From assembly GCA_946479725.1 (NCBI GenBank), contig CAMLHB010000140.1, positions 1-6,308 of the forward strand: 6,308 nt of DNA, written 5' to 3'. Within the stretch, counting starts at the first letter, position 1; each line of letters begins with the position of its first letter. The notes under the pieces are model-generated. The model worked only from the letters and a program-made list of their open reading frames with translations, was not told the origin of the DNA and searched no databases. Shown here piece after piece: positions 1,662 through 5,518 of the stretch. Source of the stretch: an uncultured Actinomycetes bacterium. GTDB taxonomy: Bacteria; Actinomycetota; Thermoleophilia; Solirubrobacterales; 70-9. The position numbers were made by a program, and so were the translations under genes.

Positions 1662-2699
1662 TCACCAGGCCGCTCGAACCAGCTTCGCGAGGTCTCGAGG
1701 GGACGGGGGGCCGGGGACGCGCTGGAGCTCGGGGCGCTGGAGCATTGCCTGTATCGCCTCGTCGAGGCGCGATTCGTCGCCGCCGAAGGTGCTGAGGGGT
1801 TGGGGTTGTCCCAGCTCCTCGATGCGCCGGGGAAGCTCCGCGCGGTCGGTCCCGAGAGCAGCCGCGAGACCCTCGTACGGCTCGGGCGCCCGCTCGGCCA
1901 GGAACCCGATCGCCTGCGGGAGGATCGCGGCGTTGGTCTCGGCGTGCGGAGTGCCGCAGATGCGGACCAAGGTCTGGCAGATCAAGTGATGAAGGCCGAG
2001 GCCGGCGGAGTCGATCGCGTATCCGCAGAGGATCGAGCCGAGAGCGAGCGCCCCACGGTCGCGCTCGGCCCGCGCTTCGTCGAGTGCTCCCGCCAGAAGC
2101 CCCGCCCCCCGCAGAGCCGTCATCTCCGAGACCGGGTTCGAGGTCGGCAGGTACAACCCATCCGCCCCGTGCGCCAACGCGTTCATCGCACTCGCCCGCA
2201 GCTCCGCCTCCCCCTGCCCGGTCATCGCCTCCGGATCCGCGATCACCAGCGACGGCCGCACCATCCCCCGCGACCGCTCCTCCGCCCCCTCAGGCAAACG
2301 ATGAATCCCCGTCATCGGCGCCCCCGAAAGCGTGGTCGGAACCGCCACCACCTCCGCCCCCAGCACCGAAGCCACCGCCTTCGCCGAATCGATCACCCGG
2401 CCACCGCCGAGCGCAACGAGTGGGCGCACTCTCACCCCCTTACCTGCTCTGTGAGGGGGTGAGAGTGCGCCCAAGAGCGCTTTGGCGGCGGCCGGAACCT
2501 GCCCGTGGCCGACCTCGTGAACTTGACTTGCGGCAGCGACCAAACCCCGAGCATCGAGCTCCCCCAGCGCCCGCCCCGTACTAAGCAGCTCGAACTCCCC
2601 CACCCCCTGCTCCCGCAGCACCTCGACCGCGCCGGCCACCCCACCGCGCCCGAACACCACCGTGCGCCCGGCATCGCGCCAGACGAAGACCCCGCTCAA
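1662..2699 (-). CDS. Maleylacetate reductase-like enzyme, iron-containing alcohol dehydrogenase superfamily
   Basis: 345 aa, close to the usual family length. The order of motifs is typical: nucleotide-binding ALGGGRVIDSAKA (96-108), PTTLSGAPMT (121-130), MNALAHGADGLY (172-183), GLGLHH with C241 (233-241) and PHAETNAAILP (251-261). Asn173 sits where metal-dependent alcohol dehydrogenases carry an Asp ligand, as is usual in maleylacetate reductases. The expected reaction is NAD(P)H-dependent reduction of (substituted) maleylacetate to 3-oxoadipate, in the cytoplasm. The start is a TTG (2697-2699) one base after the TGA of the upstream dioxygenase, so the two are co-transcribed and probably translationally coupled. 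Two oddities: the family HHxxCH motif ends in Gln (Q242) instead of His, and residues 76-93 are encoded by a large palindrome that adds extra residues before the GGG loop. The superfamily call is firm; the exact substrate is inferred from the neighbour. Confidence 0.85.
   Translation of the reverse strand: MSGVFVWRDAGRTVVFGRGGVAGAVEVLREQGVGEFELLSTGRALGELDARGLVAAASQVHEVGHGQVPAAAKALLGALSPPHRAGKGVRVRPLVALGGGRVIDSAKAVASVLGAEVVAVPTTLSGAPMTGIHRLPEGAEERSRGMVRPSLVIADPEAMTGQGEAELRASAMNALAHGADGLYLPTSNPVSEMTALRGAGLLAGALDEARAERDRGALALGSILCGYAIDSAGLGLHHLICQTLVRICGTPHAETNAAILPQAIGFLAERAPEPYEGLAAALGTDRAELPRRIEELGQPQPLSTFGGDESRLDEAIQAMLQRPELQRVPGPPSPRDLAKLVRAAW
2421..2473. repeat. Near-perfect palindrome with 23-bp arms inside the reductase coding sequence
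   Basis: The left arm is 2421-2443 and the right arm is 2451-2473, with a 7-nt loop (CTGCTCT, 2444-2450). All 23 positions pair except one G.T wobble (2441 with 2453). The arm carries the core GGGCGCACTCTCACCCCCT. The gene's frame runs straight through it and the palindrome encodes residues 76-93 (L-G-A-L-S-P-P-H-R-A-G-K-G-V-R-V-R-P). This stretch lies between the helix after VPAAAKAL and the nucleotide-binding strand LVALGGG, a segment that I recall being shorter in relatives. No transposase is nearby. It is most simply a small palindromic element inserted in frame; an intragenic hairpin acting on transcription or mRNA is the alternative. A 6-bp direct repeat GAGCGC flanks it (2409-2414, 2475-2480), which may be chance. 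Confidence 0.8.
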
Positions 2700-5482: not shown

Positions 5483-5518
5483 GCCGAGCCGGGGGCTGCG
5501 CTCAGCCCCCGGCTCGGC
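5483..5518 (-). terminator. Strong GC hairpin after the TIG/PASTA protein gene, probable terminator
   Basis: A perfect 16-bp stem (5483-5498 with 5503-5518) encloses a 4-nt loop. The arm core is GCCGAGCCGGGGGCT. It begins 14 nt after the stop codon of the upstream minus-strand gene (TAG at 5533-5535). No U-tract follows on the minus strand, a frequent situation in high-GC actinobacteria, so termination is inferred from position and stem strength. Because the stem is symmetric it would also form in any read-through from the plus strand. Confidence 0.65.

Follow-up and report, generated by a model that had tools for sequence, protein, structure and literature searches.

Palindromes that lie in frame within coding genes are known from Rickettsia (the RPEs), Wolbachia and Methanocaldococcus jannaschii, and in the excerpts of the sources at hand they typically encode non-structured segments (PMC2229807, PMC2996958), with RPE lengths of 105-146 bp (PMC2229807). 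Excerpts on template switching between short inverted repeats describe homogenisation of arms and inversion of spacers, coding genes included, and report repeats evolved in this way in yeast, rRNA hairpins and Nematomorpha mitochondria, with amino-acid changes as a by-product (PMC8604942, PMC8794818, PMC6649704). According to the excerpt of a further source, REPs also occur inside genes (PMC3733652). Literature searches on palindromes of Thermoleophilia and Solirubrobacter and on bacterial coding palindromes covered titles, abstract openings and few subscription papers; among the matches listed, the elements reported here are not described.

The locus studied here is a palindrome in a window of 6,308 nucleotides (the whole stretch of DNA that was analysed) from an uncultured Actinomycetes bacterium. 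This element (2421-2473, 53 bp, no strand assigned) lies in a minus-strand gene of 345 aa (1662-2699), whose reading frame stays open through the palindrome and reads it as residues 76-93. The product is a maleylacetate reductase-like iron-containing alcohol dehydrogenase; domains of the latter kind were found in it, and maleylacetate reductases are among its relatives. The inverted repeat has arms of 23 nt each (2421-2443 and 2451-2473), which are 96% complementary, are spaced by 7 nt and contain a single non-Watson-Crick pair, T2441/G2453. We divide the element into a conserved centre of 19 nt (2438-2456, plus strand, CCTTACCTGCTCTGTGAGG), comprising a 6-bp inner stem with one T.G and the loop CTGCTCT, and two outer arms of 17 nt on the plus strand. 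The left arm (2421-2437) varies among copies of what we call family I and pairs with its own partner arm, and the right arm (2457-2473) is its complement. The termini read TGGGCG...CGCCCA, with flanks cgag and agag. The preliminary description had held that 23-bp arms with one wobble, translated in frame, were beyond chance, and synonymous recoding bears this out: the real gene has a hairpin score of 20, and the best score in 1000 recodings was 14, reached once.

Two other hairpins were seen in the window. One, with no strand assigned, lies directly downstream of the reductase stop (1611-1659), and its arm part CGAGTCCGC recurs, with weak likeness, in a hairpin of the related genome G279 (L131:15285-15329), so that the window may carry two elements from different families. 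(Here and below, G numbers denote related genomes, L numbers DNA loci from them and P numbers proteins of relatives.) The other is a perfect, terminator-like hairpin with a short loop (5483-5518), between a cupin gene and a TIG/PASTA gene.

When 50 genomes of the family were searched with the arms of the 53-bp element, the same gene in G288 was recovered and nothing else. The clue to a recurring centre came from a BLAST search with this element, which found two weak matches to the loop in G288. With at most 2 mismatches, the centre CCTTACCTGCTNNGTGAGG is found at 21 places in 18 of the 50 family genomes. Seventeen of these loose matches are not palindromes, and 4 are centres of long palindromes: one in the G288 reductase and three at ends of AbiEi/DUF559 genes (two in G288, one in G279). 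The three AbiEi/DUF559 loci share the neighbourhood metK - DUF559 - PH-domain - priA (domain scans identified metK and priA in L086, the PH-domain gene in L079 and the DUF559 gene in all three), and their stop codon lies inside the centre. Their arms differ from the reductase arms around the same 19-nt centre. The earlier expectation that the palindrome would recur thus holds for the 19-nt centre, present at a second type of locus, and for related palindrome families, but not for the whole 53-bp sequence, and the recurrence is seen in relatives; its assignment to Thermoleophilia agrees with the record names of these relatives. The G288 record holds two versions of the metK-priA region (L082, on C6, and L086, on C8), probably from two strains in one assembly.

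The 19-nt centre had no exact match in viral contigs. An exact search of a species-genome collection for the inner arms, with 2-32 nt allowed as the loop between them, found 3 stretches, and Thermoleophilia appears in the title of none. Their genomes (one labelled only 'Actinomycetota bacterium') lack a reductase match, and the stretches were set aside. Two of the three contain GCACTC/GAGTGC repeats, which we take to resemble CIRCE.

A second family has the 14-nt centre MAACAGCGGGGAGG. When 232 genomes of the order were searched for it, 15 contained exact matches, 82 in total, and the reversed control pattern matched 4 times. Eleven genomes (G278-G282, G284, G287-G289, G293 and G294) hold 78 of these matches, with 1 to 14 each, and the remaining 4 are single matches, one per genome. 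All 15 copies that were read, from G288, G279 and G287, form the central part of a palindrome whose arms are specific to that copy. Arm pairing was 0.929 within a copy and 0.595 when arms were swapped between copies, with one-base register shifts allowed in real and swapped pairs alike, and none of 20000 permutations reached the real value.

Long hairpins are abundant in some of these genomes. At an arm score of at least 14, G288 gave 22 over 391 kb and G279 gave 34 over 800 kb, compared with 1 in a Markov control of G279. Hairpins of at least 44 nt numbered 18 in G288 (391 kb), 22 in G279 (800 kb), 24 in G287 (200 kb) and 6 in G249 (200 kb); none were found in 200 kb each of G273 and G294, or in Markov controls. 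By eye they sort into families, of which family I has the centre of the window element and others share arms rather than centres, e.g. GGCGTTCGTCCTTTG. The 24 palindromes of G287 (L198-L206) include arm-sharing families around GGGCCGAAAACC and GGCGCGGCCATC, and G249 has palindromes of its own (L186:7052-8883), with a common centre CCGACTGCGTAGTCCCGCAC in both orientations and differing arms.

Of 56 hairpins, a crude gene caller placed 28 within ORFs, and it misses at least three known cases (L101:16802, L100:17150 and L126:12435). Ten host ORFs were scanned; one matches nothing and nine match known families, namely cysS, folP, glycerate kinase, an Lhr-type helicase, an ABC ATPase, a MocA-like oxidoreductase, ThiO and two AbiEi/DUF559 genes. 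Frames stay open through the palindrome in cysS, folP, the Lhr-type helicase, the ABC ATPase, the MocA-like gene and the AbiEi/DUF559 genes. The copy lies between the two halves of the ABC ATPase, in the C-terminal part of the MocA-like protein and at the C terminus of ThiO. Compared with solved structures, folP is longer by 18 residues (6day), the Lhr-type helicase has an extra stretch of about 30 residues (5v9x), and the glycerate kinase palindrome adds no length relative to 3cwc. AbiEi/DUF559 genes are hit repeatedly (L082, L086, L079, L100, L126 and L143, and L107 by eye), at the N-terminus, middle or C-terminus; this may reflect the number of such genes or a real link to the elements. In G279, four palindromes lie in or beside one unidentified ORF of 678 aa (L145:9538-11400), and relatives hold other palindromes at some of these points.

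A cysS match was found in 49 of 50 family genomes, and among the 30 loci read, 11 carry a palindrome between LRNFFR and FRDALADDFNTP, 1 carries a weak one and 18 have none (two of these, L162 and L167, have long linkers). Near codon 400, a second cysS site holds a family I-like palindrome in L148, L149, L150 and L152 with no clear change of length, which looks as if it had been built from existing sequence.

At the reductase site, comparison with relatives depends strongly on how distant they are. The best 120 of 5590 protein matches to the window reductase are all 342-348 aa long and all carry the segment; hence the extra residues are invisible among them, and the nearest relatives alone would pass for equal-length homologues. 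When DNA was compared at 32 reductase loci from genomes of the phylum and order, the spacing from LL to LVALGGG was 17 residues in the window versus 7 (in a few cases 8-10) in the 29 loci without the segment. The preliminary description had proposed extra residues relative to homologues, and this is correct against the more distant reductases, but not against the best 120 listed or against the distant solved reductase 3hl0, to which the alignment has no gap at the segment. The case for insertion therefore rests on the nearer relatives. The insertion is old, and all of the best 120 of 5590 proteins have it.

Three loci are filled. In L009 (about 77% identical) and L010 (about 74% identical) the palindrome is present, and changes in one arm are paired with changes in the other. 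L011 has another palindrome at this point, 51 nt long, which equals, when counted by hand, the excess length of the locus. A further 119 reductases were listed when L011 served as the query, 101 with an insert at the site and 18 without; 17 of the latter are 333-336 aa long, and the other is P0209, which belongs to the 102 proteins of at least 342 aa. Insert classes at this site in these further reductases include IAISPPEGGKWRSP, DAFVPGMRGQMRPE, GRRAENGPISPEIGPSA and LAPPSHAEEGVRVRP. By eye, DAFVPGMRGQMRPE fits a palindrome elsewhere in G279 (L133:11741), and GRRAENGPISPEIGPSA resembles a palindrome family of G287 (L202:17328). From these protein sequences we infer that the inserts in the further reductases would likewise be DNA palindromes.

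We also asked whether residues of relatives can encode at least 20 of the 23 pairs. This was so for 118 of the 120 listed relatives and for 18 of 498 control windows; swapped halves between relatives also give 98%, so that encodability indicates compatibility rather than covariation. In the second protein set, read likewise as compatibility only, a near-perfect palindrome can be encoded by 70 of the 102 proteins of at least 342 aa, compared with 3 of the 17 short proteins and 8 of the 39 control windows.

In the predicted structure of the window reductase (mean pLDDT 94.8), the segment sits between a helix (residues 68-79) and a strand (94-98), and residues 81-90 form the weakest block, with a mean of 62. 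These residues are probably flexible, as suggested by the low model confidence there. For the window reductase the model thus agrees with the earlier idea of a tolerant surface segment ahead of the strand. The good model was built with more diverse relatives; that from close relatives alone was poor.

Orthologues without the element exist for the reductase, for cysS and at L101:7413. The last is a clean empty site, where a 67-nt palindrome in G288 corresponds to 5 nt (GGCCC) in G279. Element ends vary among copies, and this single clean case defines no duplication. For elements placed in the compared parts of G288 and G279, 18 sites are filled in both (counted in both directions), 3 are empty and 5 are other. 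Most placed elements are thus shared, and recent transposition is hardly seen.

These data bear on whether a mobile element is needed at all. Local template switching might produce palindromes from quasi-palindromes, and shared centres would then be convergence or chance. Template switching can create hairpins, in the excerpt available of PMC8794818, and the second cysS site, with its palindrome and no clear length change, would fit such an origin. However, one 2.4-Mb genome carries the exact 14-nt family II centre at 14 places and its reversed control at none, and whole palindromes appear as net insertions in L011 and at L101:7413. We therefore regard a purely local origin as very unlikely.

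Movement by a RAYT (Y1 tyrosine transposase), as for REP elements, is more improbable still. The likeness is that REPs, too, are short palindromes in several families, often near gene ends, and that intragenic REPs are known, as stated in the excerpt of PMC3733652. Against this, none of 11 genomes, among them the ones with most copies of the family II centre, matched the transposase profile PF01797, whereas 5 of 14 control genomes did. Moreover, the window element, the one examined in this respect, has no terminal GTAG or CGTC tag, and in the present elements the terminal arms are the variable part. The reading was rejected for want of the transposase, although the profile might overlook a diverged enzyme.

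How the arms diverge was measured in cysS. The arm test used 10 loci, leaving out L158, in which the centre is inverted, and L159, which has a weak hairpin. The two outer arms of a gene pair at 0.933, a value reached by none of 20000 permutations, and swapped arms pair at 0.645; between species, left arms agree with left arms at 0.644 and right with right at 0.646. The central 9 positions per side are 0.80 identical among the 10 loci. The arms of one gene thus match each other better than the same arm matches between two species.

Orthologues might also come to differ symmetrically if copies were repeatedly lost and different ones inserted in their place. The reductase site and one membrane-protein-like site do hold different palindromes according to species. 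In cysS, however, centre, frame and position are the same in the 10 genomes and the arms differ by scattered paired changes, and L227 and L145 agree in the outer arms and differ in the inner pairs and loop alone. Both observations speak against re-insertion, which we consider an unlikely source of the symmetry.

Centres also occur in both orientations. Among 121 reductases, class A loops are of YLLSEG type in 17 and of the reverse HxASKG type in 35, and class B loops are of SHAEEG type in 61 and reversed in 6; these classes are text patterns that we defined, and 2 of the 121 remain unclassed. Parsimony gave 13 orientation changes within class A (n=52) and 26 over all four states, on a tree built without the insert columns, in which many branches are weak and strain recombination could inflate the count of flips. 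One starred clade (P0049, P0050, P0060 and P0097) nevertheless includes both loop orientations.

Selection could keep the arms matched if the hairpin or cruciform were functional, as a terminator, in RNA stability or as protein-binding DNA, and changes in one arm were compensated in the other. In its favour, arms vary around conserved centres, a pattern shared with structured RNAs that are bound at the loop, and a number of copies are situated at stop codons or between genes that converge. Symmetric change could also result from selection on a cruciform. Against these points, it is hard to see what a strong mRNA hairpin would do within cysS, folP, Lhr-type and reductase genes, all of which harbour copies, and both centre orientations occur within one gene. 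Arm mismatches are rare (21 of 230 pairs) and show no wobble excess on the sense strand, with 2 G.U against 4 A.C, although these numbers are small. Furthermore, Rfam had no family fitting the elements in the 126 kb scanned, where one locus holds a tRNA, and nothing above threshold in the window, which gave only sub-threshold microRNA-like scores. Maintenance by selection is accordingly a possibility that we hold in some doubt.

Our preferred explanation, which we consider probable, is that the window copy belongs to one of several dispersed families of palindromic elements, with RPE-like insertions whose arms are matched by template switching. Small palindromes of about 45-75 bp would have spread through genomes of a Thermoleophilia lineage, settling in intergenic DNA and also in frame within genes whose protein can accommodate an additional loop. 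During replication, as we infer, DNA polymerase would switch template between the arms and copy one onto the other, and the same switch may sometimes invert the loop. Since template switching acts on DNA, no selection for an RNA hairpin is needed. It explains symmetric divergence within conserved genes, but not the conservation of centres or their spread to new loci. Centres may perhaps be conserved through recognition by a mobilising or structure-binding protein; no mobilising enzyme was found when 11 genomes were searched for Y1 transposase. More speculatively, and in our opinion rather improbably, these could be mobile palindromes of a new kind, defined by their centre, in which the donor passes on the hairpin tip alone and template switching creates or rewrites the long arms at the target. 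If so, centre-defined palindromes would be self-repairing inverted repeats that feed new peptide segments into conserved enzymes and flip them.

A Thermoleophilia lineage with many species and several palindrome families offers a natural experiment, in which one gene site is empty, variously filled and occupied by both loop orientations. With such data it can be told whether mutation or selection maintains palindromes. They can also reveal by what route small elements come to lie in conserved genes, and in what way new protein segments arise from template switching. In addition, they carry a warning: strong covariation in a coding region need not signify a functional RNA.

Among known systems, MITEs have ends that form the conserved part. 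The present elements are alike in being small inverted-repeat elements without an enzyme of their own, but in them conservation is in the middle and variation at the ends. REPs and REPINs are likewise small dispersed palindromes, some of them intragenic in the excerpt of PMC3733652; here the arms are longer, no Y1 transposase was found in 11 genomes and the window element has no GTAG/CGTC tag. Template-switch repeats, as the excerpts present them, share homogenised arms and inverted spacers with our elements, yet they are local, whereas here families with shared centres are spread over the genome. The closest likeness proposed in the preliminary description, that to RPEs, is one of behaviour: a recurring centre, in-frame copies in conserved genes and relatives without the segment. 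To the extent of the excerpts, RPE-type coding palindromes are also short, dispersed over the genome and located both in frame in conserved genes and between genes. In contrast to RPEs, the elements here belong to another phylum and are shorter (45-75 versus 105-146 bp, 53 bp in the window); and they differ from RPE-type palindromes in combining a conserved centre with copy-specific arms, with both centre orientations and different palindromes at one site. We class them as protein-coding palindromic elements of RPE-like behaviour, set apart by their lineage and by the conserved centre with arms that change together.
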